Origin: a virus
Virus record (IMG/VR): IMGVR_UViG_3300033150_000740
Span: 1-46,433 of that record
Reading direction: 5' to 3' (one strand)
DNA: 46,433 nucleotides
Notes under the pieces: model-generated
Told to the model about the DNA's origin: nothing
The model's database searches: none
Seen by the model: the letters and a program-made list of their open reading frames with translations, nothing else
Part shown: one piece after another, positions 1-37,800 of the stretch
Layout of the letters: each line of letters begins with the position of its first letter
Position numbering within the stretch: position 1 is the first letter of the stretch
Translations under genes and position numbers: made by a program

Positions 1-114
1 TAGCACTGCGCACTTTTGTGGCAGTCCAAACTCGAGACCAGCTTCGGTTAAGAACTCCTCATTAGTCCCATCGACTCGCCGCTGTCCATAACCCTCAGGA
101 TGTTTCTTCGATGA
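1..114. repeat. terminal direct repeat, left copy
   Basis: These 114 bases are identical to 46320-46433. The reading frame of the capsid gene runs unbroken from base 1 into base 46319, so the repeat is the overlap of a circularly closed or terminally redundant genome of about 46,319 bp, not an internal duplication. The physical ends of the packaged DNA cannot be told from this. Confidence 0.95.
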
Positions 115-1266
115 AGATTCGCCATAGAATGTAGTATCGTCGATGTAACGATAGGTTAGTTCCTTAGGCTCAAGAATGATCATCATGTTCCTGGTGGTTG
201 CGTCGTAACTGAACAACGGATGAGTTTTCATGTAGATGGTTCCAAACGGAGTTATCCACTCACGAATTTGCATCCCGTAGACTTTTTGAGCAGGTTGTAG
301 GTTGACCTGCCCACCAGCCATTGCTAGGGCATCTATACCGAGCAGAGCACCACTTCCAACGAGTGCAAGTTTTTCCTCAGCACCATAGCGGAAGATTTGT
401 TCGAGCATAGCTTTGAACCAATCTTCACCGCCAGTAGTCCAGGCCTTTCCACTGTAGTCGGTGTTCAAGGTGTAGTCGTCGCAGTTTGCGGGTGCATATT
501 GGCGGATGAAGTTGATCACGCCCATAGTGGTGCGCTCAGGTTTTCCATTATCACCTACATTCTCAGTGCGAATGCCCCACAAGAATGCAAGTTCCATTTC
601 CCAAGAGTGCATTTCCAAAGCTTCGGCCTTAGCTTTCTGATATTGATCACCAGTGCGAAGCTTAGTCCTGCGAGCGGTTCGAGTGATTGACAAAGGTGTA
701 CGGAAAATTTGGGTATAGTTGTAAACCTTTGTCGGGTTAAGAGCAATCGCATCAGGCATCTCGCCACCTTCAGGATTGATATTGCCGATGATCTTGAAGG
801 TGTCGCAATCACTCAAGTCGTGGTCAGGAGAGTTGTCGTCATCTTCGAGCAACCTCACTGCCAAAACAGAGTTGGTGGTTCCTCTGGTTACACCGATGAT
901 TTTGCCAACTACATCAACACGATAATCATCAGAGTCACGTAGCAAGATCTGATGCCCTTCACGGATACGGTTAGCGAGTGTTGTAGTAATCTGCACATAG
1001 ACCACATCTCCAGCTACACCACCACTGGTATAAGCGCTGGTAAGGTCTGGGAGTGTGTAGACACCACTTACAGCACCACCGACTGTGGCTTGTTCCTGAG
1101 TCCACCACGAAAACTCTGGATCATCTGTTTTTTCACTATTAAGCATTGACAAGATTGCGGTCAATGGAGCTTGACCATTAGGATATAGATAAAGGATTTG
1201 CTCTCTCCAATTTTTGGGTCTCTGTCCATCGACCCAGTCGCCAGTTCCTCTCATTCCAAGAAACAT
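1..1266 (-). CDS. major capsid protein (HK97-like fold, DUF5309/SU10 type), continues across the circle junction
   Basis: Builds the icosahedral head shell. The start ATG at 1266 follows GGAGGTGA. The frame is open to base 1 and continues at 46319 to a TAA at 46287, giving about 432 residues on the circle. The N-terminus reads MFLGMRGTGDW. The central stretch with RTPLSITRTARRTKLRTG, then an acidic helix around ALEMHSWEMELAFLWG, is typical of DUF5309/SU10-like major capsid proteins. Its place directly after scaffold and a small decoration-like gene in the late unit supports the assignment. Only the window edge splits it; it is not truncated. The fold assignment rests on recalled family resemblance. 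Confidence 0.85.
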   Translation of the reverse strand, partial: MFLGMRGTGDWVDGQRPKNWREQILYLYPNGQAPLTAILSMLNSEKTDDPEFSWWTQEQATVGGAVSGVYTLPDLTSAYTSGGVAGDVVYVQITTTLANRIREGHQILLRDSDDYRVDVVGKIIGVTRGTTNSVLAVRLLEDDDNSPDHDLSDCDTFKIIGNINPEGGEMPDAIALNPTKVYNYTQIFRTPLSITRTARRTKLRTGDQYQKAKAEALEMHSWEMELAFLWGIRTENVGDNGKPERTTMGVINFIRQYAPANCDDYTLNTDYSGKAWTTGGEDWFKAMLEQIFRYGAEEKLALVGSGALLGIDALAMAGGQVNLQPAQKVYGMQIREWITPFGTIYMKTHPLFSYDATTRNMMIILEPKELTYRYIDDTTFYGESSSKKHPEGYGQRRVDGTNEEFLTEAGLEFGLPQKCAVL

Positions 1267-1291
1267 TTTAGTCACCTCCATTAATCAAGAA

Positions 1292-1678: not shown

Positions 1679-2488
1679 TTACCTCCCTAATGCTTTGTTC
1701 ATTTCTTCTAGTTCAGCTAGAAGAGGATCAGTTGGTGGTTGTTGGCCCTTAGGTCTGCCAGCGCTGGAGCGTTTTCTTGGCAGACGAGGGGCTGTTGGTC
1801 TTTTAGGTTGATTTGCAGTTGCTTGCTTGTGCAAGTCAAGACGTTTCCTCACTTCATCACCTACTTCGGTCAATATCTCGTCGTAACGCTTATCTGGGTT
1901 TTGGGAAGCGAGTTCCTCGAAGACTGATGCTACGACTTTTTTGAAAGGTTTTAGGTCAGGGTTTTGTTCGTAGAATTGTTCGCTTGCTCTTTGGAGGTTT
2001 GTTACAGTTGCTATGTTGGTTCTTACGATTTCAGGTATCGAACGAAGAACACCTTCGCCGAGAATTTTCCTGGTGTCTGTTACTGCTTGTTGATAGATCT
2101 TGTTTAACAACTTGTTTAGCGCAGCAGGATTGTCCATTACTTCATCTACGTCTACACCTTCGAGAAAGTTCCTTTCTTCAAGTTCCAAAGGTGGCTCAGT
2201 CGAAGGTGCTTCAGTTGTCGGTTTCTTGCCCTTTACAAGAGCCTTTAGTTCTTCGATTTCAGCCTTTAGCCGAGTAACTACGTCATCCTCAGGAACGTCG
2301 GTAGAGGGAACCTCTGTCGAAGGCACCTCTGTTGACGGTGCCTCAGTTGAAGGAACTTCGGTCGAAGAAAGCTCCGTCGCAGGTACTTCGGTTGAAGGTC
2401 CTTCGGTTGAAGGCGCCTCAGTTGTTTGTTCACCTTCGCCTGTCAAGTGTTTGTTCATGAGTTCTATCTCGTCTGCAAAGTCGTTCAT
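1679..2488 (-). CDS. scaffolding protein with STEVP repeats
   Basis: This 269-residue, strongly acidic and helical protein lies just upstream of decoration and capsid genes in transcription order, as head scaffolds do. Residues about 18-65 are a low-complexity run of (P)STE(V/A/G)P units. The middle contains charged helix, the region around residue 105-190 has NFLEGVDVDEVMDNP, and the C-terminal 40 residues are very basic (RPTAPRLPRKRSSAGRPKG), fitting a scaffold that binds capsid through a basic tail. The start follows GGAGGTTAGCT. No protease motif is seen. The scaffold role is inferred from composition and context. Confidence 0.7.
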   Translation of the reverse strand: MNDFADEIELMNKHLTGEGEQTTEAPSTEGPSTEVPATELSSTEVPSTEAPSTEVPSTEVPSTDVPEDDVVTRLKAEIEELKALVKGKKPTTEAPSTEPPLELEERNFLEGVDVDEVMDNPAALNKLLNKIYQQAVTDTRKILGEGVLRSIPEIVRTNIATVTNLQRASEQFYEQNPDLKPFKKVVASVFEELASQNPDKRYDEILTEVGDEVRKRLDLHKQATANQPKRPTAPRLPRKRSSAGRPKGQQPPTDPLLAELEEMNKALGR

Positions 2489-6019: not shown

Positions 6020-6300
6020 AAGTTATAGGTGAAAGAACTATTAAATCAGTCCACTTACCATGATACTGTTCGTTGTCGTTGCTAACAAATGCTTGTAATT
6101 TCCAAGTGCCGCTCATATCAAGTGTATTGATGTCACACTGGTACTGTATGTAAGTATCATCATCAGGACAGACAGCGGCTTCCCACTCTCCTACAGAGCC
6201 ATCTGGTTTTTTTGTACATTACCTTTATATCACCAAAACCAGACAAATCAATGCCTGTTGATACTAGTATTTTCACAGTACCACCTACAAAGGTCTCCAT
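6018..6300 (-). CDS. small beta-sandwich structural protein, frameshifted at an A7 run
   Basis: Two overlapping frames join into one protein of about 93 residues if one base is removed from the run of seven A (minus strand, plus-strand T at about 6207-6213). The first frame reads METFVGGTVKILVSTGIDL up to VMYKK. The second continues PDGSVGEWEAAV through DTYIQYQ and GTWKLQAFVS to SPIT and a TAG at 6018-6020. The joined pattern (beta strands, KPDG turn, GxWxLQ strand) resembles small BppU-like phage accessory domains. GAGGTG precedes the ATG. Sequencing error, transcriptional slippage or a real mutation could each explain the shift. Confidence 0.6.
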
Positions 6301-7513
6301 ACAGTAACACCTCGTTGTTGATTAGAGATCTTTCAGATAACTCTTTTGTTATTTTAGACTGTAACAACAACTCCTTTAATATACCAGATTGAACAGATAA
6401 CAGGCATTCGTGCATCTCCAGAGGTACAACAGTAGTAGGAACAACTGTAGTTGGTTGTGGAGGTAGAGCGGTAGTTGGAACTACAGTTGTTCCTGCTATT
6501 GTTGTAGGCAGGATAGTTGTGGGAGAAACAGTTGTAGGTGGTGGAGTAGTTGGCTTAACCGTCGTTGGTGGTACAGTTGTAGGTTGTACAGTTGTTGGTG
6601 CCTGAGTAGTGGGTGGAGCTGTGGTCGGCTTAGTTGTAGTCGGCGCCAAGGTTGTAGGAGGTGCAGTCGTGGGCTTAGCTGTTGTCGGAGCTACAGTCGT
6701 TGGTTGCGCAGTAGTTGGTGCAGTCGTAGTTGGTTGACTCGTCGTTGGAGCTTGGGTTGTTGGAGCTATTGTTGTCGGAGCAGCTGTAGTCGCAGCACCT
6801 ACTACCCCAAAATCCACCATGTACCAGTATTGAGGGACGAGGATGAAGGAATAGGGTTCGGCATGGAGTTGTGCTAGTTCTGTAACATTTAAAGCCCTTG
6901 TGTATAGCAGTAATCTCCATACCTTAATGGCATTGTTATAACCCAATCGTAGCGGTTGAGTGTCCGATGGAAGGGTTCCTATAGCCGAGGTATTTGTCTC
7001 TCCTTTGTCACTGTTACAATAGACGGAGAATTCAGAATTATCCACTCGAACTACGGAGAATTGATTTCTTTTGTCAGTCGAAAAACTGGGAAAGTTAGCA
7101 TAATACATGTTATAATTAGCATAGATATTCACTCTAAAGACTCCATACTGATTTATAAATCGAAATGGTGTAGAATACGTACTTTGGCCAAGCCATAGAG
7201 ACGTTTTCTGTACAGAAAGATCTAAAATTATGGCATCTAAGATTACAGTATAAGGTGCATCATTAAACCATCCACTGTAAAACGATCCGTAATCGAGATA
7301 GTCTGTTTCTCCTATATCCAAGTAATCAGCGACCCATGTCACTAGACCGTTAACAGTTGGTTTTAGAGAATGTATCTGCTCAAAAGGGTTGCCGCCCCCC
7401 TCATTAAACAACCAACACCCCACCAATCCCTGCGCCAAAGGATGTGTAGGATCAATCCTACTGCCATAGGGTGGTTTCTTTCGAGGGTCGGGGTTTCGGA
7501 TTAGTCGGAACAT
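6248..7513 (-). CDS. LamG/concanavalin-like protein with Thr/Pro repeat tail
   Basis: 421 residues. Residues about 20-230 look like a LamG (concanavalin-type jelly roll) domain: it opens with HPLAQGLVGCWLFNEGGG and ends with a KVWRLLLYTRALNVTELAQL motif, both typical. Residues about 240-355 are a tandem array of PTT(x)AP/PTTVxP units, mucin-like. About 65 residues follow. The last 53 bases overlap the start of the next gene. LamG modules bind glycans, so a receptor-binding or virion surface role is likely. The repeat DNA (about 6450-6800) could change length by slippage. Confidence 0.7.
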   Translation of the reverse strand: MFRLIRNPDPRKKPPYGSRIDPTHPLAQGLVGCWLFNEGGGNPFEQIHSLKPTVNGLVTWVADYLDIGETDYLDYGSFYSGWFNDAPYTVILDAIILDLSVQKTSLWLGQSTYSTPFRFINQYGVFRVNIYANYNMYYANFPSFSTDKRNQFSVVRVDNSEFSVYCNSDKGETNTSAIGTLPSDTQPLRLGYNNAIKVWRLLLYTRALNVTELAQLHAEPYSFILVPQYWYMVDFGVVGAATTAAPTTIAPTTQAPTTSQPTTTAPTTAQPTTVAPTTAKPTTAPPTTLAPTTTKPTTAPPTTQAPTTVQPTTVPPTTVKPTTPPPTTVSPTTILPTTIAGTTVVPTTALPPQPTTVVPTTVVPLEMHECLLSVQSGILKELLLQSKITKELSERSLINNEVLLYGDLCRWYCENTSINRH

Positions 7514-12538: not shown

Positions 12539-13591
12539 TTATTGTCTCCAATTAGATTGTTTAAATTTTGAACAATCTTCGATTGACTTCCAAGGTTTTA
12601 ACTTCAACAGTTCGTTAAAGGAAATTTTTTGATTCTCTAGTAACCACTCACGTTCCTCAGAGCCAATTTCAATAGCTTTGTTCCACCACCTTTCGATGTC
12701 AATATAGCGGCCAAAGCGTTCTTTGAGTACATCTTTATTGCGATTCACCATCTCAATTCCACCAAGGACATAGCACGATACAAGGAAACCAAAAGTGTGA
12801 GGGAAATTTCCTGATTTTGCATAGAGACGGTAGCGGTCTTGGTTGGCATAGTGGGAGACACTGACTGAGTGTTTATCTTTTGATTGATCAAGTTTGGGAA
12901 ACGGCCCTATGTGAATGCAAGGATCGGTTGGAACTGCCCAATTTACATAGCCAAGTAACCAAGGCTTGATCCCGATGTGCATGTCTCCACCGCCCCAAGA
13001 AACACGATATTTTGAGAGTGCTCCGTAACCACCTATTCCGTTATCTCGTGAAAGGAACCACTCACGGCGACAGATCCAAGGCATACCTTTCCATGTCATT
13101 GGATGAGGAATGGTGTAAACGGAGTTCCAATCACCTAGTTCGTGCATACTCATATCACGATCATGCTTGGCTCTTGACTCATGTTGGTGTGCCCAGTTAA
13201 TCGGTGCATGAGCGAAACCGAGTGTTTCGTCTTCTGAGTGCTGTTCCATGAAAGTGTAGAGATCAGTGAAGGTGTGTCTTCCAACTAACATGTGAGAGTC
13301 AAGGCAAAGGATGTATTTACCTTGCGCATGTCGTGCCGCAGTTTCACGAGCTGAGAACAGACAAGGGAAGGTTTGACGAAGGAGTTTGATGATTCCTTCC
13401 TTTACGTAACCATTGGGAATAGCAGCTTTTACGAGCTCATAAGCTGATTCGTCTGAGTTGTCACAAATCACTATTTCGCAGAAACCTTTTGGGAAAGCTT
13501 TGAAAGATTCAATGCATGACCTGATGGTGACTGCAAGCATTGCAATGTCGTTGCGGTTGGAGATTATTATGGAAAGTTCCGGTTTTTTCAT
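12539..13591 (-). CDS. family 2-like glycosyltransferase
   Basis: 350 residues with a GT-A fold signature: the N-terminal ELSIIISNRNDIAMLAVTIR, then EIVICDNSDES, and the DxD-type motif in YILCLDSHM near residue 100. A later conserved Trp/His-rich part (WGGGDMHIGIKPWLLGY) resembles the acceptor region of polypeptide GalNAc-transferase-like GT2/GT27 enzymes. It should transfer a sugar from an activated nucleotide. The start overlaps the holin stop by 4 bases with only a weak ribosome site, so translation is coupled. The C-terminal residues are encoded by a 25-bp palindrome. The target (virion protein, host envelope or phage DNA) is unknown. Confidence 0.75.
   Translation of the reverse strand: MKKPELSIIISNRNDIAMLAVTIRSCIESFKAFPKGFCEIVICDNSDESAYELVKAAIPNGYVKEGIIKLLRQTFPCLFSARETAARHAQGKYILCLDSHMLVGRHTFTDLYTFMEQHSEDETLGFAHAPINWAHQHESRAKHDRDMSMHELGDWNSVYTIPHPMTWKGMPWICRREWFLSRDNGIGGYGALSKYRVSWGGGDMHIGIKPWLLGYVNWAVPTDPCIHIGPFPKLDQSKDKHSVSVSHYANQDRYRLYAKSGNFPHTFGFLVSCYVLGGIEMVNRNKDVLKERFGRYIDIERWWNKAIEIGSEEREWLLENQKISFNELLKLKPWKSIEDCSKFKQSNWRQ
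12554..12578. repeat. dispersed 25-bp palindrome, copy 4
   Basis: AGATTGTTTAAA, central T, TTTGAACAATCT, identical in sequence to the copy at 42312-42336. It is read through as coding sequence near the C-terminus of the glycosyltransferase (CSKFKQS), a few codons before the stop. Confidence 0.9.
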
Positions 13592-26295: not shown

Positions 26296-26455
26296 CTTAA
26301 TAATTGAAAGAGCAGTCGAGAGGCAGTCAGATCAAAAGACTGCCTCTTCAGACCTTGTAGCAGCAATTCATGCTACGTTAATGGACATAGGATTACTACT
26401 AAACACTGAAATGGAGAACATACGCTATGAAGAACGCACCAAAGAGTTGGGATAA
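26273..26455 (+). CDS. small helical early protein, 60 aa
   Basis: MDEKEISNLIIERAVERQ with a second helix (LVAAIHATLMDIGLLLN). It overlaps the previous gene by 23 bases and the next by 29. The ribosome site is weak (AGGG), so translation is probably coupled. Function unknown. Confidence 0.5.
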   Translation: MDEKEISNLIIERAVERQSDQKTASSDLVAAIHATLMDIGLLLNTEMENIRYEERTKELG

Positions 26456-26951
26456 ATATTTTTATGAAATCTGCAAAACCATCGCAAGGAAATCTCCGTG
26501 CCTGTCACAAAAGATAGGTGCACTCCTTGTGCGTGACAAGAGTATTGTATCAACTGGTTATAATGGACCACCTAGAGGAATCCCTCATTGTGGTCACGAC
26601 AGATTCATGAAAGACAAAACACTCTCTAACCTGTCTCAAATCTACCCTCCAAAAGTAATCGCCACAACCTGCCCACGTGAGTTGTTGGGTTACAAAAGCG
26701 GTGAAGGCATACAATACTGTATAGCGCAACATGCAGAGGAAAACGCAGTTTCTAATGCTGCAAGACTTGGTGTCCAAACTGTTGGCACTACTCTTTATAT
26801 GAACTCTGTGATACCATGTCAGAAGTGCTTCGGCACTCTCATTAACGCAGGTATTATAGAAATCGTTGTAGAAGATACAAAATTCTACGACCCTCACACA
26901 GAATTGCTGGCCAACAACTCAGACATAGTCATAAGGAGGTTTGATTTATGA
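26427..26951 (+). CDS. dCMP deaminase
   Basis: Converts dCMP to dUMP with zinc, feeding dTMP synthesis. 174 residues. The catalytic HAE motif is in YCIAQHAEENAV near residue 100 and the PCxxC motif in IPCQKCFGTL. The N-terminal SQKIGALLVRDKSIVSTGYN is typical. The insert with HCGHDRF and TTCPRELLG resembles the extra metal loop of phage and ComEB-type deaminases. GGAG lies ten bases before the ATG. No thymidylate synthase is seen in the window. Confidence 0.88.
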   Translation: MKNAPKSWDKYFYEICKTIARKSPCLSQKIGALLVRDKSIVSTGYNGPPRGIPHCGHDRFMKDKTLSNLSQIYPPKVIATTCPRELLGYKSGEGIQYCIAQHAEENAVSNAARLGVQTVGTTLYMNSVIPCQKCFGTLINAGIIEIVVEDTKFYDPHTELLANNSDIVIRRFDL

Positions 26952-28147
26952 GCTCAAGCCACAAAGTTCTAGTCTTAGGAAACGATGGCTACATAGGTTA
27001 CCCTTTAACTATCCACCTCTTAAAACGTGGCTACACTGTCTTCGGAATCGACGACAAGTCACGCAGAAGACGAGTAAGCGAAGTCGGCAGCGACTCGCTG
27101 ACGCCAATAGCTTCCGCGTGGGAAAGAAAGTTATACCTAAAAACGTTCAAAAACTTTGCCGACCAAGTTGACCTATCCCTCGGTTTCGATTCACCTGGGT
27201 TTATAAGAGGTATCCTAAGCGTCTTCAAACCTGACACCATCATCCATCTTGCAGAACAACCTTCTGCACCTTGGTCTATGAAAAGCGTACAACACGCAAC
27301 TGAGACACAAAAAGAAAACGTCATCGGAACGCTCCACTTACTATGGGCTATAAAAGAAGCTTGCCCCGAAGCTCATTTGATAAAACTAGGAACAATGGGA
27401 GAATATGGAACACCTCCTTGTATAATACCTGAGGGATATATACCTTACACTTGCCTTGAAGAGTTAAAACCAGGCAAGATTATACGTATAGAAGATTCAC
27501 GAACCTGTCCAATGGCCGACTTGTTATTTCCTCGAACTGCTGGCTCATGGTATCACCTTTCAAAGGTCCACGACACTCACAATATCGAGTTTGCTTGTCG
27601 CAACTGGGGGTTGCGCTCAACTGACATAATGCAAGGCGTGGTATTCGGATTGATGCCTACATCTGAAGACGTAGAAATAACTCGCTTTGATTATGATGAG
27701 TATTTCGGGACAGTGATCAATCGCTTCTGTGTTCAGGCATTGATAGGACATCCTATTACACCTTACGGAAAAGGTGGCCAAACCAGAGGGTTCTTGACTC
27801 TTAAGGATTCGATAACTTGCTTGACGATAGCTTTGGAAAATCCTCCTAAACAAGGTGAATACAGAACTCTAAATCAATTTGCTATGACTTGTTCAGTAGA
27901 TGAACTAGCCATAATTGTAAAAGAATGCGCCTCTGAACTAGGCCTATCCGCCGAAGTTCTTCATATAGAAAATCCACGAAAAGAGATGGAGGAACATTAT
28001 TATCTACCAGTTCATCACAAGCTAAAAGATTTAGGTTATAAACCCACTACAAACCTGAAGTGTGAGATAACTTCTTTATTGAAAGATTTAATACATTACA
28101 CTGACAATGTGAAGGAGGAAGTAATCGATCCTACCACGAAATGGTAA
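26948..28147 (+). CDS. sqdB: UDP-sulfoquinovose synthase homologue (SQD1/SqdB, extended SDR)
   Basis: Known members turn UDP-glucose and sulfite into UDP-sulfoquinovose, the head-group donor of sulfolipid. 399 residues, full length for the family. The NAD site is VLGNDGYIGYPLTIHLLKRG, the SQD1-specific LGTMGEYGTP follows near residue 150, and the catalytic YxxxK lies in SWYHLSKVHDTHNI, followed by WGLRSTDIMQGVVFG. These segments match SQD1 more closely than ordinary epimerases. The ATG overlaps the deaminase stop and has AAGGAGG. A palindrome starts at its TAA. No sulfoquinovosyl-acylglycerol transferase is seen; the GT2 protein in the late unit is a possible partner. Confidence 0.82.
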   Translation: MSSSHKVLVLGNDGYIGYPLTIHLLKRGYTVFGIDDKSRRRRVSEVGSDSLTPIASAWERKLYLKTFKNFADQVDLSLGFDSPGFIRGILSVFKPDTIIHLAEQPSAPWSMKSVQHATETQKENVIGTLHLLWAIKEACPEAHLIKLGTMGEYGTPPCIIPEGYIPYTCLEELKPGKIIRIEDSRTCPMADLLFPRTAGSWYHLSKVHDTHNIEFACRNWGLRSTDIMQGVVFGLMPTSEDVEITRFDYDEYFGTVINRFCVQALIGHPITPYGKGGQTRGFLTLKDSITCLTIALENPPKQGEYRTLNQFAMTCSVDELAIIVKECASELGLSAEVLHIENPRKEMEEHYYLPVHHKLKDLGYKPTTNLKCEITSLLKDLIHYTDNVKEEVIDPTTKW

Positions 28148-28834: not shown

Positions 28835-30157
28835 ATGTCTATCAAGGTTGGAAAAGTAGGAATGGTCCCACTTAGTTCAATAACTGTCGGGAAACGTGCA
28901 CGTGAAGAGATGGGTGACCTCGATTCGCTCGAAGAGAATATGAAGGAAAGTGGTTTAATCTCTCCACTTGCAGTCAAAGACAACGGAGACGGAACTTACA
29001 CACTCTTAGCTGGTGAGCGTAGGTTGACAGTGCTACAAAGAAACAATGTTAGCGAGGTTCCAGTTCGTATTTATGACAGGGAACTCTCAGAAATTGAGAT
29101 GAAAGTTATCGAAAAATCTGAGAATTTCTTCCGCAAAGACATGGAATGGTATGAGCTTGATAAACTAACACTTGAAATCCATAGATTGCAACAGCAGTTG
29201 CATGGTGTCAAAGCTCCAGGTCCAGGTAATGTTGGTTGGTCAGTTGAAGACACAGGTGCTTTAATCGGAGGTGTTTCTAAGGCATCTGTCTCTCAAGCCA
29301 TTAAACGTGCTGAGGCAATGGAAGTGTTTCCAGAGTTGTTTGAAAAGTGCAAAACCCAAAGTGATGCAACAAAGGTTCTAAAGAAACTCGACGAGGAACT
29401 CTTAAAACAAACCATTGCACAAAAGATAGAGAAACAACGCTCTAACACAACTCTGCAACAACTTGCCAGATGTTTCATTTTGAAGGACTTCTTCGTTGGA
29501 GTGAAGGATATCCCTGATGAAACTATTCACCTAGTAGAGATTGACCCTCCTTATGCAATCGACTTGAAGAATGTAAAAAAATCAGAAGGTGTATCTCAAT
29601 ATTCAACAACTAGTTACAACGAAATACCTTCTGATAAATATCAAGAATTTCTCTCAAAACTCTTCAAAGAATGCTACCGAGTAATGACACCTCACAGTTG
29701 GCTCATCTGCTGGTTCGCACCTGAACCATGGTTCGAAGTTGTTTACAAAGAGCTGCAGAACGCAGGTTTTGAAACCACTAGAATGTGTGGCATCTGGGTG
29801 AAACCAACTGGACAATCAAAAAGGCCTGAGATCAAACTAGCAAATTCATATGAGATGTTTTTCTATGCCTGGAAAGGTCGTCCGACACTTAACAAGCCAG
29901 GCAGGTCAAACGTCTTCCAATATTCACCTGTCCCGCCAAACCAGAAGGTCCACGAAACTGAACGACCTATCGAACTGACAACTGACATTTACGAAACCTT
30001 TGCACCTCCAGGCTCTCATGTACTCATCCCTTTTCTTGGTTCAGGGAATGGCTTGATAAGTGCCCATCAACTTGGAATGTCAGCTGTTGGTTTCGAGCTA
30101 GGTAAATCCTACAAAGATTCATTCCTTGTGAAGATTGACAGATTGTTTAAAAATTAA
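28835..30157 (+). CDS. ParB (CTP-binding N-domain + HTH) fused to a DNA methyltransferase
   Basis: 440 residues. Residues about 1-95 are a ParB/Sulfiredoxin fold with VPLSSITVGKRAREEMGDLD, the GERR motif in LLAGERRLTVLQRN and ENFFRKDMEWYE, which correspond to the CTP-binding C and P motifs of ParB. Residues about 125-165 form a KorB-like HTH (SVEDTGALIGGVSKASVSQA). Residues about 200-440 are a beta-class-type methyltransferase: DPPY in VEIDPPYAID comes first and the SAM motif FLGSGNGLISAHQLG is near the end. The target base is probably adenine N6 or cytosine N4. A palindrome encodes its last residues and stop. Confidence 0.85.
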   Translation: MSIKVGKVGMVPLSSITVGKRAREEMGDLDSLEENMKESGLISPLAVKDNGDGTYTLLAGERRLTVLQRNNVSEVPVRIYDRELSEIEMKVIEKSENFFRKDMEWYELDKLTLEIHRLQQQLHGVKAPGPGNVGWSVEDTGALIGGVSKASVSQAIKRAEAMEVFPELFEKCKTQSDATKVLKKLDEELLKQTIAQKIEKQRSNTTLQQLARCFILKDFFVGVKDIPDETIHLVEIDPPYAIDLKNVKKSEGVSQYSTTSYNEIPSDKYQEFLSKLFKECYRVMTPHSWLICWFAPEPWFEVVYKELQNAGFETTRMCGIWVKPTGQSKRPEIKLANSYEMFFYAWKGRPTLNKPGRSNVFQYSPVPPNQKVHETERPIELTTDIYETFAPPGSHVLIPFLGSGNGLISAHQLGMSAVGFELGKSYKDSFLVKIDRLFKN

Positions 30158-30164: not shown

Positions 30165-30177
30165 ATTGGAGGTATTT

Positions 30178-33100
30178 ATGAAAAGAACCTTCGTACCACC
30201 TTCTGGAGATCGCAACGCTAAGTTGGCGATAGTAGGTGAACAACCTGGGTTCCAGGAAGTAAAATACCGCAAGCCTTTCATTGGTCCTGCAGGTCGAGGC
30301 CTTGACGAATGTCTTGCAATGACCAGAATTCAGCGCTCTAACATTTACATAACTAATGTCATCAAGGATCTAGATGCACCACTCAAGCATTATATTGACA
30401 TAGATTCTCGTGGCAAGTGGAAAATATCTGAACAGGGTTATCAATATATCCAGGAATTAGCCGACGAACTAAAGTCACTACCTAACCTAAACGTCGTTGT
30501 AGCCTGTGGCAACATCGCTTTACTTGCACTAGCTAACCGAGCAGGTATAACTAAGTGGAGAGGCTCAGTTATCGAATCTACAATTGTACCTGGCTTGAAA
30601 GTAGTTCCTACATTCCATCCAGCCACGTTCATACCTCCTAAGTTTAACTTTTTAAACAAACCACTCATTTGTGAAGATTTGCTAAAAGCGAAATATGAGA
30701 GTGAGTTTTCATGGATAGAGCGCAAGGAAAGAAACGTAACCATCAAACCCTCGTTTGACGAGGTGATTGCCACTCTCAACCATTGCTACGAGATTGGTCT
30801 GAGGGGTCAAACAATAGGAATCGATATCGAAGTTATAAATGGTGAGCTAGATTGTATATCCTTTGCTTGGTCTGATACACAGTCAATGTCTATTCCTTTC
30901 CGCTACCAACAGGGTGATTACTTTACACCTGAACAAGAGTATGAAATAATGCTTTTGATTGCAAAGATTATTCAAGAAGAAAGAATATCAAAAGTAGGTG
31001 CTAACTTCATCTTTGATCTCCAATTCCTGTTCCGTAAGTATGGAATCCGCCCTCGAGGCAATATCCATTGCACACAGATTGCTCAAAAAATCGCCTTCCC
31101 AGATTTCCCTGCAGGCCTTGACTTCGTAACTACAATGCACACCGATGTCCCATACTACAAAGACGACGGAAAACAGTGGATGAAGATGGGAACTGGTTCT
31201 TGGGAAGAATGGTGGACTTACAATGGGATGGATGCGATAGTGCCTGTCGAAGCTATTCCTAAGCAACTGCAAATTCTTGCTAAACAAATAAATGAGGAAA
31301 CCTACGAGCGTCAACGAAGGTTGATCGAACCACTCATCTACATGAGCGAACGTGGAATAAGGATCGATGTTGAAGGAATGATGGGATACAAGGAACAACA
31401 ACAAGCTGAGCTAGACAAACTTGCAGAGGAGCTGAATCGTGAAGTAGGTCATGAGATAAACTATAACTCACCAGAACAACTAAAACATTATTTTTATGAA
31501 GAGCTAGGTCTCCGACCTTACGTAAATCGCAAGACAGGTAAAAAAACAACTGACATCGACGCACTCAAGCGAATCTACCGCAGCGGAGGACCTGGCAGCA
31601 AAGCTGCACGGTTGATGTTAGATATTCGATCACTTTCAAAGCGTATATCTACCTATCTTAACATTGGAAAGGTTGACCAAGACGGACGTTATCGCTCATC
31701 ATACAAACCAGTGGGCGCTGAAACTGGAAGAATCTCTAGTGGTGAAACAATCTTTGGCACAGGAGGGAATCAACAGAATTGGCCACATGATCTGTTGCGT
31801 TTCTTCCTTGCCGATGAAGGTTACATACTCTACAGCATGGACTTGTCACAGATAGAGAACCGAATCGTAGCCTATGTCGGTGGAGTTGTATCGCAGATAG
31901 AGGCCTTTGAACAAGGCATTGACTTGCATCGTCTGACTGCCTCAATAATCTTTGACAAGCCTTACGATCAGATCTCCTCAAAAGATGGTTCTTCCTTACT
32001 CGGTGATGGACGACAAAGTGAGCGTTATTGGGGTAAGAAGTGTAAATTTAGTAACTGCCAGGTCCTGTCTGAATCTGGCTGGATTGATATATCAGAGGCA
32101 TACAAAACTAAATGCAAAATAGCTCAGTGGCATGTGGATGGAACTATATCATTTGAGTACCCAACAGATTGGTATGTAGACGACTTCGAGGGTGAGTCTG
32201 TCATCATATATAACCAAAGAATCTACCAGGAAGCTACACCAGAACACAAAATGCCTTTGGTATATGAGGATGGAAGAGTAATAGACAAAACAATTAATAA
32301 CTATCCAAAAAGCGGAAAGTACAAAGCACCACTATCTGGAATCTATAATGGAGGTATAACACTCAACAAGTACGTACTGATGTTAATGGTAGCTTTCCAA
32401 GCTGATGGTCATTGGAGTGGTAACTCTATTCAATTCAATTTAACAAAGGAACGTAAGATAAATAGATTAAAGTATATCCTTGACAAAGGTGGATTTGCTT
32501 ATAGTGGCACTAAAACCATCAATGTATCGGCTAAAAACAGTGTGTGTAAGTTCATAAGAATGGTCATGGGAAGGTCTAAATCATTTGGACCGTGGTTACT
32601 TGAGTTAGGTCAAGAATCCTTGAGAATTATTTTAGATGAACTACTTCATTGGGACGGATACACAGACAGAGCCAGAAAGCAATATTTTACTACTGATCTA
32701 GTAAATGCTATATGGATTCAGACAATAGCACACTTATGCAATAAGGCCGCTATCATATCTCACCAAGACAATTCTGTTACTAGTAGTTTTGGAAAAAAGA
32801 TATTGTACAGACTTACCATAAGAGACTCAGCATCACCAGCAACCCATGCTATAAACAGACAAAAAAGATTTAGGTCAGGAAAAATCTACTGTCCAACTAT
32901 GCCATCTGGGTACTTTCTATGTAGAGAACATGGACTAATAAGTGTTACTGGAAATAGCAATCATGCTATCAACTATAGTGTTGGTTATAAGACATTTGCA
33001 CTCACTAATGAGATGCCTGAAAGCGAAGCCAAGTATGTCTTAGAAAAGGTCCACAAAGGCTATCCACAAATAAGAAACGGTTATCACCAAGTGATTCAAA

Positions 33101-33600
33101 ACATGCTTAAGAAAAATAGAATTGTCACAAACCTAATGGGTCGTCGAAGATTGTTCCTCGGTCCTATTATCCCTTCGCCTCCTAATGTTCCTAAAAGTGC
33201 CTGCGAAAATACCTATCGTGAAGCCTATGCGCATTTACCTCAAAGTACAACTGCAGACAAGATTAACGAACATGGAGTTGAATACGTTTATTACAATCAA
33301 CACCTCTTCAAACCAATCGAGCTATTAACTCAAATACATGACGCAATAGTGTTTCAAATACCACTTTCAATTCCTTGGGAAGAACATGCTAGAATGTTAC
33401 TTTTAATAAAAGAGTCGCTTGAACAACCTCTTTATTGGCACGATAGAGAAATAAAGACACCTGCCGATCTATCAATTGGCTTCAATATGTGTAAAGAAGA
33501 GATGAAGGAATTAAAAAGCAAAGAAATCCCTACCGACATAGGCAAGCTCGCTGACTTATTGAGGAAGATCTATTACGAACTCTGCACTACGTCTGAATAG
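30178..33600 (+). CDS. polA: uracil-DNA glycosylase-like domain fused to family A DNA polymerase, interrupted by an intein
   Basis: Replicative polymerase, 1140 residues before splicing, 835 after. The ATG at 30178 has GGAGG; an in-frame ATG at 30166 overlaps that site. Residues about 1-180 are a UDG family 4/5-like fold (LAIVGEQPGFQE, PFIGPAGRGLDE, TFHPATF) without the usual Fe-S cysteines. A 3'-5' exonuclease follows (IGIDIEV, GANFIFDLQ, YNGMDAIVP). Polymerase motif A is MDLSQIENRIVAY, motif B is GKK plus SNHAINYSVGY, split by the intein, and motif C is QIHDAIVFQ, with Ala in place of the usual Glu after HD. UDG-PolA fusions are known in some phages. Confidence 0.88.
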   Translation: MKRTFVPPSGDRNAKLAIVGEQPGFQEVKYRKPFIGPAGRGLDECLAMTRIQRSNIYITNVIKDLDAPLKHYIDIDSRGKWKISEQGYQYIQELADELKSLPNLNVVVACGNIALLALANRAGITKWRGSVIESTIVPGLKVVPTFHPATFIPPKFNFLNKPLICEDLLKAKYESEFSWIERKERNVTIKPSFDEVIATLNHCYEIGLRGQTIGIDIEVINGELDCISFAWSDTQSMSIPFRYQQGDYFTPEQEYEIMLLIAKIIQEERISKVGANFIFDLQFLFRKYGIRPRGNIHCTQIAQKIAFPDFPAGLDFVTTMHTDVPYYKDDGKQWMKMGTGSWEEWWTYNGMDAIVPVEAIPKQLQILAKQINEETYERQRRLIEPLIYMSERGIRIDVEGMMGYKEQQQAELDKLAEELNREVGHEINYNSPEQLKHYFYEELGLRPYVNRKTGKKTTDIDALKRIYRSGGPGSKAARLMLDIRSLSKRISTYLNIGKVDQDGRYRSSYKPVGAETGRISSGETIFGTGGNQQNWPHDLLRFFLADEGYILYSMDLSQIENRIVAYVGGVVSQIEAFEQGIDLHRLTASIIFDKPYDQISSKDGSSLLGDGRQSERYWGKKCKFSNCQVLSESGWIDISEAYKTKCKIAQWHVDGTISFEYPTDWYVDDFEGESVIIYNQRIYQEATPEHKMPLVYEDGRVIDKTINNYPKSGKYKAPLSGIYNGGITLNKYVLMLMVAFQADGHWSGNSIQFNLTKERKINRLKYILDKGGFAYSGTKTINVSAKNSVCKFIRMVMGRSKSFGPWLLELGQESLRIILDELLHWDGYTDRARKQYFTTDLVNAIWIQTIAHLCNKAAIISHQDNSVTSSFGKKILYRLTIRDSASPATHAINRQKRFRSGKIYCPTMPSGYFLCREHGLISVTGNSNHAINYSVGYKTFALTNEMPESEAKYVLEKVHKGYPQIRNGYHQVIQNMLKKNRIVTNLMGRRRLFLGPIIPSPPNVPKSACENTYREAYAHLPQSTTADKINEHGVEYVYYNQHLFKPIELLTQIHDAIVFQIPLSIPWEEHARMLLLIKESLEQPLYWHDREIKTPADLSIGFNMCKEEMKELKSKEIPTDIGKLADLLRKIYYELCTTSE
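32041..32955 (+). mobile_element. intein with LAGLIDADG homing endonuclease in polymerase motif B
   Basis: 305 residues, from Cys (codon 32041) to Asn (codon 32953), with Ser as the +1 residue. Block B is TPEHKM. Two LAGLIDADG-like helices are LMVAFQADGHW (about 32380) and ELLHWDGYTD (about 32640). Block F/G reads YFLCREHGLISVTGN then S. Removal restores GKK-SNHAINYSVGY, a normal O-helix. The residue before the terminal Asn is Gly, not His, a known but minority form that can slow splicing. Confidence 0.85.
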
Positions 33601-33612
33601 CGAGGAACCAGA

Positions 33613-34878
33613 ATGTCTGACGAACGAATCTTGCCTGACTGGATAGATGCTTTTATGAAACTTACTGAAGAGTCTGAACCACCTACACTATTTAGAAAGT
33701 GGGTTGCCATTTCAGCTATTGCTGCAGCACTGCAGCGGAAGACTTATGTTAATCTTGGAATCTCACTCACGATATATCCTAACTTTTACATCGTTCTAGT
33801 AGGTCCCTCTGCCACCGGCAAAGGAACTGCAATGAAATATGCTTATGATATACTAGAGCAAATACCTAACATTCGCCTATCTGCCCAAGCAACTTCATTG
33901 CAAGCCCTTATAAAAAGGATGAGGGAAACTAACTTGACCGACATAGACATGACTACAGGCAAGCAATACTACCATTCATCAATGACTATATTTTCAAATG
34001 AGTTTACTGTATTCCTTGGTTATCATAACAAAGAACTAATGGCAGCCCTTTGCGATTGGTATGACTGTCACAATAGGTGGGTCTATGACACTGTTAGTCG
34101 TGATAAGGAAGAAATCGTAGGTGTGTGGGTGAACTTGTTAGCAGGCACTACTCCAGACAGTCTGCAAAGTTCACTTCCGTTGGAAGCCATCGGTGGAGGC
34201 CTTACGTCACGCATAATCTTTGTATATGCAGATAAGAAGGAAAAACTGGTGATAATACCTACTGTTTCAGAAAAGGAAATAAAGTTACAACAAGCACTTG
34301 TTCACGACCTGGAACAAGTAGCCTTGCTAAGTGGAGCCTTTACAATGACAGATGACTTCATATCTGGCTACACCGAGTGGTGCATTGAGGCAGAGAAAAA
34401 CCCACCTTTTCATGACAAGCGTTTTGACGGGTACTGTGGAAGACGCAGGAATCACTTGATATCTTTAGCAATGGTATGTAGTGCTAGCAGAGGGAACAGT
34501 ATGATATTGGATAGTGTAGATCTAGAAAGGGCCTCAAAGTTGTTGACCGAGGTAGAACAAACAATGGGACTTGTTTTTAGAGGTATCGGAAAGAGTGACA
34601 TATCAAGCCTTTTGAATGACGCAATAGTTTTCTTTGAAAACTCACTCACACCTGACATTCCTATGTGGCAGTTCGCTAGGCAATTTGAAACTAACATGGA
34701 CAAACTAACAATGGACCGAGTTCTGAGCACTCTCGAAACCTCACGATATATAAAAGTGGTAAGAAAACCTGGGATGGAATCTATTATCCATGTGCTTGGT
34801 TGGGAAGATCGTTCAAAAAATAAACAATCTATTTCTCATGAAGAAGACGACTCACTTCACGACGGAAGTCAGGAGTGA
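33613..34878 (+). CDS. AAA ATPase, DUF3987-like, probable replicative helicase or primase-associated
   Basis: 421 residues. Walker A is VLVGPSATGKGTAMK near residue 65, a Walker B-like region is in MTIFSNEFTVFLGYHNK (residues about 125-140), and a sensor-like GVWVNLLAGTTPDSLQ follows. The N-terminal WIDAFMKLTEESEPPTLFRK is typical of DUF3987-type phage ATPases next to polymerases. No primase active site is seen. GAGGAACC precedes the ATG. The last 50 bases overlap the convergent late gene, and a palindrome is translated near the end (DRSKNKQS). Confidence 0.7.
   Translation: MSDERILPDWIDAFMKLTEESEPPTLFRKWVAISAIAAALQRKTYVNLGISLTIYPNFYIVLVGPSATGKGTAMKYAYDILEQIPNIRLSAQATSLQALIKRMRETNLTDIDMTTGKQYYHSSMTIFSNEFTVFLGYHNKELMAALCDWYDCHNRWVYDTVSRDKEEIVGVWVNLLAGTTPDSLQSSLPLEAIGGGLTSRIIFVYADKKEKLVIIPTVSEKEIKLQQALVHDLEQVALLSGAFTMTDDFISGYTEWCIEAEKNPPFHDKRFDGYCGRRRNHLISLAMVCSASRGNSMILDSVDLERASKLLTEVEQTMGLVFRGIGKSDISSLLNDAIVFFENSLTPDIPMWQFARQFETNMDKLTMDRVLSTLETSRYIKVVRKPGMESIIHVLGWEDRSKNKQSISHEEDDSLHDGSQE
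34806..34830. repeat. dispersed 25-bp palindrome, copy 13
   Basis: AGATCGTTCAAA, central A, AAATAAACAATCT shortened by one in the match (right arm AAATAAACAATCT reads less perfectly than in other copies). It sits at the meeting point of the two convergent transcription units, inside the plus-strand ATPase gene and touching the stop of the minus-strand 1804-residue gene. Confidence 0.85.
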
Positions 34879-37800
34879 CAACTCCACCTGCAAGTATTAC
34901 CGTCTTGAGCTCTTCTCTTAACTGTTTCCTCTCATCCTCAGAGGCACTCTTTAATCTATCTACATAAACTCTTGCCCTTGCTTCTGGAGACAGTCCCTTT
35001 AGACTAAGCCAGAAGGACCTATTCTGCAGATCTTTTGTTCTCTCCATAAACTTGAATCTGTCGAGCAATCTCTCTCTTACATCTTTATCCTTAAATTGCT
35101 TGATGTAGTCAACAACATCTTTCCTTGAATAGTTACCGTCAAACAAATAACCTTCAACTCTTAGCTCTAGACCTCTATTCTGGATCCACCTTTCAAGCTC
35201 CTCCTTCTCTTCAGCCTTTTCTATTTTAGCTCCAAACTGTGAATACGGATTAGTTATACCAATAAATCTTTTGATTACAGGCATTCTGGCCAAAACTTCT
35301 GCAATATGTTCCTGTTTATCACTATCAGGTAGGTCACCAAAGGCCTTTTCATAACCTTCACCAAGTAAATAAGACCAAACAGTTCCACTTGTCACCAGTT
35401 CTTCAACCGCATACCTGGTCCTTTCAGGTGAAAGGCCAGTTACTTTACCTATATCAATGTAAACTTGTGGTGTCTCTCCTGGGATGTACTCTTCCTTGCT
35501 CTTCGGCCAGCCAAAAGGTCTCTCAGTCCGTCTCCATATATCTTCATTTAACCAAAAATCTTTGTTCGTGACATAGCCAATCACTCCACTCACAGTGGGT
35601 GGCAAATCAGTGACACTAACAGGGCTCATTTGCTTAAGTGAATCAACAACCCTATCTACATCAACTTCATTTCCCAACCATTTATCGGTTGCAGCTTCGA
35701 AGAACGTCTTGAAAAATTTTTGTGAAGGATCAAGAGGAATCTTGATGTAAATGTATCTGCGTTGTCCTCTACTATCAATAAATGAAAAGTCATCTCCAAG
35801 TGGTATGCAAAGGTTGTTCTCCATATCTATCGACCCTTGCAACGATTTCATTGTTTGAGGAGCCATCTGCTTTGCAGCAATGTAAAGACCGACAACTGCT
35901 GAAGCGAACTGAGCTATCTTGTACATTCCAAGAAATGGATTGTCTTTAAGCGACCTCAGCATTCCTCTTGTACCTTGGATTGCTGCATTAAGATATGGAA
36001 TAGCATTATCCACAGCCTTCGCAACACCACCACCTTGGCCGAAGTCCATATAATTTCTAGCTGCAAAAGTAGCTTCTTTAGTTACATCTTCTAACTTCCT
36101 TGCTTCCTCAATGCTTGTTCCTAGCTCCCTTGCTTTCCTACGGATAACTCTCTCACGAATCGCTAACCTAGTCAACACTTCACTTGTCTCACCAAGATAG
36201 CCAAGGAAATCTTGAACTTTGTCTAGCGGACTTTCTATACGCCTACCTCTTCTAAGTAACCTACCTTGGTGGACCAAGAATTCCATCCCACCTCCTTCCT
36301 TTATATACTCATCATAACGACCTTTTCTTAACAGAGCATCCCTAAACACTGTAATAAGATCACGACCCATCTGTAGTCCATAGACTGGAAAGTGTGGACT
36401 GTAAACAGGCTTCCACTTTCCACTCTCAAAAACTCTGGCTGCAAACCAGGCATGCATTATGTCCCTTGGTAAGTTAGCAAGGGCAAATCCCCAGTTAATG
36501 CCAGTTGCAAAGGTTCTTAACAATGCAGATCCACTTAACCATCTAATCAACTGACTCAACCTATAAGACATCTCTGGGTTGCTAATAATCCATTCTTTTG
36601 CCATTTCAGGTGAAATATAAAGTGGCTTTCTCTCACCATTTTCAAATACATAGATTCGGGACCAACCACTAGGAATTTTGTCCCCTTTCTTTTCCTTAAC
36701 TCTCGCAAATGGATTTTCTGGGTCTTTTCTGGCTAACTCAAGCAACGCTCTGTTGGCTTCATTATTCAAGATTCTTCCATAAGCTCTATTAAACACTTCA
36801 AGCGCCATTACCTCTGATGACGGCTCGTAGATGTCGGTATCCCTGCCTTTTGCTAAGGCTTCTATACCAGAGTCATAAACAGTTCTTTTCTTCTTACCTA
36901 CTTTAGCCTTGTACCTTACATCGAGCAAATCTATCAGCTTGATTCTACGATAGTTATGCACAATAAGATCATTATACTCCTGTTTACTAATCAATCCTGC
37001 ATCAAGCATGTCTTTGAGTGGTTTCTTCATCCACTCGAAATAGGCTCTAGCACGTTCTCTTATTACTGCAGCCCTCTCAGGTGATATTTTCTCGATATAA
37101 GGAAATAGTTCACTATACGCAATTGACTCAGTCGGTCCTAGACCTTTTGGAAACTTAAACTTTCCAGGTGGTTTATACTTGGCAATTGCAATCATTCTTA
37201 TAGCCAGTATAAGATTATCTAATATCTCCCTTTCCTTCTTACTTAAACCGCCATAGACTTCATCCCTCAGTTGCTTCAACATTCTAGCTGCAAGTGCTGA
37301 AGAACCTTTCGAGAGGTAGGCCTTCTGCATGATTCGGTAGCCTTCATCACCTAGGACTTTTAACATACCTCTTCTGATATTACCTGATCTATCAACGAAG
37401 GCTCTAACACCTTCCTCTTTTGCTCTTCTAAATGCTTCTCTAAGTTTAAACTTTTTCATTCCTCTGGCTTGCTTCATATATCCAGAGAACTTTCTAGCTG
37501 CGTTAGCTAGTTCCTCTGCAGCTTTGTCGATAGGAATCCCTGAATAAAGGTCAACTACTTTACCTCCATACAACTTGGCCCTCTCTTTATCAAGAAACTT
37601 TTCCCACCTCTTAACTGCCTGCTTAGCATCTACAAGTGTATCTTCTGTATCAACCCAGAGCCATTCTTTCTTAAGAGGGTCATAGCCTTCTATTATATAA
37701 CCACTAATTTTTCTTTCTTCAACTTTGGCCCTCCACTTGCCTGGTACTATCTTTTTACCAACTTCTGTTTCTACAACTTCACGATGAGGCCTTACAGCCG

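Follow-up and report, generated by a model that had tools for sequence, protein, structure and literature searches.

The virus record IMGVR_UViG_3300033150_000740 (46,433 nt; ~46.4 kb), analysed over its whole length and referred to here as the window, carries an intact gene for an SQD1-like enzyme that belongs to a group with proline in place of SQD1 Arg101. Across related phages the gene co-occurs with a GT-A glycosyltransferase (GT2), modelled as resembling mucin-type polypeptide GalNAc-transferases, and its presence co-varies with Thr/Pro-rich tracts in candidate acceptor proteins and with the charge of a linker in one of these. We put at roughly one in two the probability that the SQD1-like enzyme produces a modified UDP-sugar, possibly anionic, for transfer by GT2 to threonines of virion proteins. 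The features concerned are:

26948..28147, + strand: SQD1-like extended SDR, 399 aa, ATG start; Pro105 at the SQD1 Arg101 position; Cys-containing insert at ~158-190
26427..26951, + strand: dCMP deaminase of the replication module; stop overlaps the start of the SQD1-like gene
12539..13591, - strand: GT-A glycosyltransferase (Pfam GT2) with DSH motif; modelled fold nearest mucin-type polypeptide GalNAc-transferases
6248..7513, - strand: TerL-near protein, candidate acceptor; long mucin-like TTxAPTT tract, aa 242-325 (~6539-6790)
1679..2488, - strand: head-module protein, candidate acceptor, flanked by portal and major head protein; resembles a scaffold only in its position
1..1281, - strand: major head protein (PHROG 1328, E 9e-32), truncated by the record end

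The SQD1-like gene and its phage lineage

Both ends of the record are identical over 114 bases (direct terminal repeat), so the genome is probably complete. It belongs to a well-defined lineage with genomes of ~42-52 kb that have in common TerL, portal, major head protein, a Sak4-like annealing protein, a ParB-methyltransferase fusion, UDG-PolA and primase. The fusion, a ParB N-terminal domain joined to a DNA methyltransferase (28835-30157 in the window), is kept across the lineage. No tRNA genes were found in the window.

The open reading frame at 26948-28147, claimed to be full-length in the preliminary description of this DNA, is intact, as is the gene in 12/12 phage records checked. Its placement in the SQD1 family holds at the levels of profile, sequence and fold, SQD1 being the closest solved relative. 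NCBIfam NF041015 (UDPsulfquin_syn) matches over profile positions 2-383 of 384 (456.5 bits, E 7e-137), and Arabidopsis SQD1 (1i24/1qrr) matches across residues 5-399 (E ~1e-100). An AlphaFold model (pLDDT 75.7, from a shallow alignment of 13 phage sequences) has SQD1 1qrr as its best fold match (E 1.5e-37, TM 0.81), the runner-up (E ~1e-18) trailing by ~19 orders of magnitude. Full-length extended-SDR homology and the SQD1 fold are both present in the window protein. Most members of the window lineage have the Cys-containing insert, upstream of the YxxxK motif; in the model the corresponding region (residues 150-204) is of low confidence. The score lies below the curated NF041015 cut-off (575 bits), which was exceeded in 0/397 genomes; since actinobacterial Arg101 relatives also fall short of it, this cut-off is not a discriminator. 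The two segments cited earlier as specific to SQD1, MGEYGTP (residues 150-156) and YHLSKVHDTHNI (202-213), are present and likewise fail to discriminate, because relatives with Pro at residue 101 carry both.

A tblastn search of 50,697 GenBank phage records gave no match at E<=1e-5. Twenty-three viral loci matched the window protein, and 122 candidate stretches of viral contigs, contigs of 173-241 kb among them, matched a phage profile. The closest cellular relatives in one genome scan were two Thermoleophilia MAGs (48-49% identity).

Position of the gene in the replication module, near a dCMP deaminase and a methyltransferase, would be the gene order expected if the sugar served DNA modification. 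Against this, both neighbours also occur in phages that do not carry the SQD1-like gene, and no hydroxymethylase or DNA glucosyltransferase was recognised. No support was found for the DNA glycosylation suggested earlier, which we consider extremely improbable. A functional tie between the deaminase and the SQD1-like gene was rejected, because the deaminase is also found where the latter is absent.

Residue 101 and phylogenetic position

In Agl3, Ala in place of His95, Arg101, Met145, Tyr182 or Lys186 leaves no activity (PMC4388408). The viral homologues fetched keep SQD1 His96, Thr145 (as Thr or Ser), Met146, Glu148, Tyr149, Ser180, Tyr182 and Lys186, invariant or nearly so, and the catalytic triad Thr145/Tyr182/Lys186 (SQD1 numbering) is present in the window protein. 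SQD1 Arg101, however, corresponds to Pro105. Pro occupies this position in 96/96 viral and 37/45 cellular sequences fetched (counts in which some contigs appear twice) and in 57/57 viral rows after dereplication at 85% identity, while Arg is found in SQD1, Agl3 and the alphaproteobacterial sqdB proteins fetched. In a tree built by a quick method from sequences that did not include Agl3, Arg101 proteins form a single clade (SH-aLRT 91), corresponding to one change. The window protein belongs to a clade whose 39 rows are all viral (support 95), separated from the Arg101 clade by branches with support of 99.

On this sequence evidence we assign the protein to a distinct Pro-101 group of SQD1-like nucleotide-sugar enzymes, because of both the residue and its position outside the Arg101 clade. 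The label UDP-sulfoquinovose synthase, given in the preliminary description, is not established and goes too far. That description took a lack of sulfite-binding residues as grounds for abandoning the label. The Arg101 to Pro change approaches such a lack and stops short of it, since no text showing sulfite binding by Arg101 was found.

A true synthase, converting UDP-glucose and host sulfite to UDP-sulfoquinovose for sulfoquinovosylation of the virion, would be a sub-case of the main reading. Among solved folds SQD1 is the nearest by a wide margin; TMGEY is retained, as it is in SQD1 and Agl3, whereas the alphaproteobacterial sqdB proteins fetched have Val for Glu148; and the lower linker acidity that accompanies the gene (see below) would fit an anionic sugar. 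Set against these are the replacement of Arg101 in all viral homologues fetched, with the Agl3 R101A variant inactive, the separation from the Arg101 clade, and the failure to recognise a sulfite-supplying gene in the window. We regard the synthase as possible but doubtful.

Elsewhere, a small Pelagovum plasmid carries an Arg-101 SQD1-like gene immediately followed by a gene for phosphoadenylyl-sulfate reductase, a sulfite producer (L451:2998-4904).

Partner glycosyltransferase and candidate acceptors

GT2 (12539-13591; 350 aa), proposed from the outset as a partner, was confirmed as such a family member by Pfam (PF00535, E 1e-13) and is conserved in the lineage; its Asp-Ser-His, a DxH-type metal motif, is invariant in 8 phage sequences. 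Its model (pLDDT 76, pTM 0.79), which like that of the SQD1-like protein was built from few aligned sequences (8-13), has its best PDB matches among polypeptide GalNAc-transferases (4d0t, E 1e-11; TMq as high as 0.61). By sequence, the PDB profile matches to these enzymes are weak (E 0.006-0.08). GT2 is present in 16/16 genomes with the SQD1-like gene vs 1/7 without it (p=7e-5), in a set of 23 lineage genomes, each 40 kb or longer (21 obtained via TerL or Sak4, G027 via a GT2 search, and the window itself), that leaves out two very divergent genomes, G025 (GT2, no SQD1-like gene) and G026 (both). The two genes lie ~13 kb apart in different modules. GT2 occurs without the SQD1-like gene in G020, G025 and G031, so it may accept other donors.

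The neighbourhood of GT2 is variable, often including a second SDR, further glycosyltransferases, methyltransferases, B12-binding radical SAM enzymes or a sulfotransferase-family protein; NTP_transferase (PF00483) was not found in 36 lineage records. Seven genomes, each of which has the SQD1-like gene, encode a second SDR next to GT2; in L326, L438 and L452 one adjoins the SQD1-like gene itself. This arrangement, together with Pro at 101 being common to the viral and most cellular forms fetched, speaks for an SQD1-like activity other than sulfoquinovose formation (e.g. 5,6-dehydration, 4-keto formation or epimerisation), whose product, finished in some phages by another SDR, would be used by GT2. 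The window itself has one PF01370 match only, and we know of no established activity for any Pro-101 member, both of which count against it. We consider such an activity a serious candidate, with a likelihood approaching even.

Other phages show further variation in these regions. B12-binding radical SAM proteins are encoded in the glycosyltransferase/tail region of several lineage phages (L032:4046-6064, where the protein is fused to a GT2 domain; G003, G016 and G018, near TerL). Sulfotransferase-like proteins lie beside GT2 or the SQD1-like gene (L035:18378-18968, L389:5297-5908, L326:5142-5972), only that of L389 passing the Pfam cut-off. A diverged second GT2 copy adjoins the first in some lineage phages (L038:1291-2349, L389:6900-7826). 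By sequence, L397:3880-4554 encodes a nucleotidyltransferase-like protein, in a phage with GT2 and no SQD1-like gene, that may point to an alternative sugar donor.

The candidate acceptors at 6248-7513 and 1679-2488 matched no Pfam or PHROG family. The linker of the latter contains PSTEVPSTEAPST and PSTEVPSTEAP; candidate Thr-bearing acceptor peptides for GT2 are TTLAPTTLAPTT and PSTEVPSTEAPS. Thr/Pro-rich tracts were found in 11/16 genomes with the SQD1-like gene (long tracts being absent from the other 5/16) vs 0/7 without it (p=0.0046; 23-genome set). Around TerL they were found at 12/22 loci with GT2 vs 0/15 without (p=3.7e-4), in a hand tally from which near-duplicate contigs were dropped. 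Linkers of 1679-2488 orthologues are Thr-Pro-rich where the SQD1-like gene is present and Asp/Glu-rich where it is absent: P[ST][ST] motifs occur in 17/20 vs 0/9 (p=9e-5; two pairs in this set are close relatives), and median D+E is 0.23 vs 0.41 (p=8e-5). Composition bias was rejected as the source of this difference, core proteins of the two groups being similar in GC (p=0.09), Thr (p=0.07), Pro (p=0.52) and D+E (p=0.83). An eight-gene tree provides 6 independent contrasts, of which about 5.7 have linker charge changing in the same direction and 0 in the opposite one; tracts and thresholds are post hoc, the tests having been designed after the data were seen, and the contrasts are few. Resolution of a TerL-only tree was too low for the contrast test.

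The small number of independent contrasts and the poorly resolved TerL tree would allow the SQD1-like gene to be accessory cargo, associated with GT2 and tracts only through shared ancestry or host range. This we judge improbable, since the multi-gene tree shows ~6 independent changes and not one discordant contrast, and the two genes are so far apart in separate modules. Near SQD1-like genes of unrelated phages a search of 329 kb for mucin-like tracts yielded one weak tract (the same in L347 and L348); the tract association is therefore shown within the window lineage only.

Bacterial sqdB serves sulfolipid synthesis, and the alphaproteobacterial sqdB genes with Arg101 adjoin a sugar transferase gene (L445, L448, L449), precedents for an auxiliary metabolic gene acting on host sulfolipid or envelope glycans. 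In the window, however, no SqdD- or SqdX-like lipid transferase was recognised, the sole partner is a GalNAc-transferase-like enzyme, and it is virion protein tracts that correlate with the gene. An auxiliary role is thus very unlikely, and the alteration of host lipids raised as an option in the preliminary description found no support. Its suggestion that the SQD1-like gene acts with GT2 in virion glycosylation is probably right, given their co-occurrence, the GT2 fold and the acceptor-like tracts; because the gene co-occurs with a mucin-type-like transferase and Thr/Pro-rich virion proteins, its product is probably an unusual sugar for virion decoration.

For virion glycosylation, the SQD1-superfamily enzyme would oxidise a UDP-hexose at C4 and modify C5/C6, yielding an unusual UDP-sugar that may be anionic (UDP-sulfoquinovose or one closely related to it). 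GT2 would then move the sugar onto Thr/Ser of the Thr-Pro-rich tracts in both candidate acceptors, presumably to the benefit of the phage. That sister phages have acidic linkers points to an anionic sugar but falls short of proof; sulfoquinovose would match this charge, although that identity is tentative and on the unlikely side. More doubtful still is a complete phage mucin-type O-glycosylation in which an anionic sulfo-sugar on Thr-Pro repeats supplies the charge that Asp/Glu-rich linkers provide in sister phages. Thr/Pro linkers can also be unglycosylated spacers.

Relation to known systems and further observations

The phage protein resembles SQD1 (Arabidopsis), SqdB (bacteria) and Agl3 (Sulfolobus) in full-length homology, SDR fold, catalytic triad, TMGEY and equivalents of His96 and Ser180, but differs in Pro for Arg101, its separate clade and the Cys-containing insert, and no sulfolipid transferase partner was recognised beside the phage gene. 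A putative UDP-sulfoquinovose synthase has been reported from a Mu-like virus of the Cariaco Basin (PMC7785012); judging from an excerpt of that paper, the annotation is the same and the gene virus-encoded, but the phage type is different and the excerpt describes no link to GT2 or an acceptor. With mucin-type polypeptide GalNAc-transferases (GT27) the phage enzyme shares the GT-A fold, the DxH-type metal motif and the best structural match, and its candidate acceptors are Thr- and Pro-rich. Unlike GT27 members it is phage-encoded, has ~15-21% identity to them, belongs to Pfam family GT2, and has no Pfam match to a C-terminal ricin-type lectin domain in its 350 aa. Mycobacteriophage glycosyltransferases, e.g. 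that of Maravista, are thought to glycosylate the phage's own capsid (PMC11256854) and are similar in being phage-encoded enzymes proposed to modify a virion protein; here, in contrast, the transferase is accompanied by a dedicated nucleotide-sugar enzyme, and candidate acceptor tracts co-vary. A narrow literature search found no mucin-like glycosylated phage tail.

If true, the main reading would give a protein target to a widespread, unexplained class of viral nucleotide-sugar genes, provide a concrete genetic rule in which enzyme, transferase and acceptor tract go together, and add tailed phages to the range of mucin-type O-glycosylation. For Pro-101 homologues, annotation as UDP-sulfoquinovose synthase on the strength of motifs, and claims about sulfur metabolism derived from it, may be wrong.

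At 30166-33600 the window encodes a DNA polymerase A with an N-terminal uracil-DNA glycosylase domain, in which ~305 aa (roughly residues 626-931) are missing from relatives up to 97% identical; from the sequence this segment is consistent with an intein. The 1804-aa protein at 34829-40243 has an LPD23 polyvalent-protein domain.
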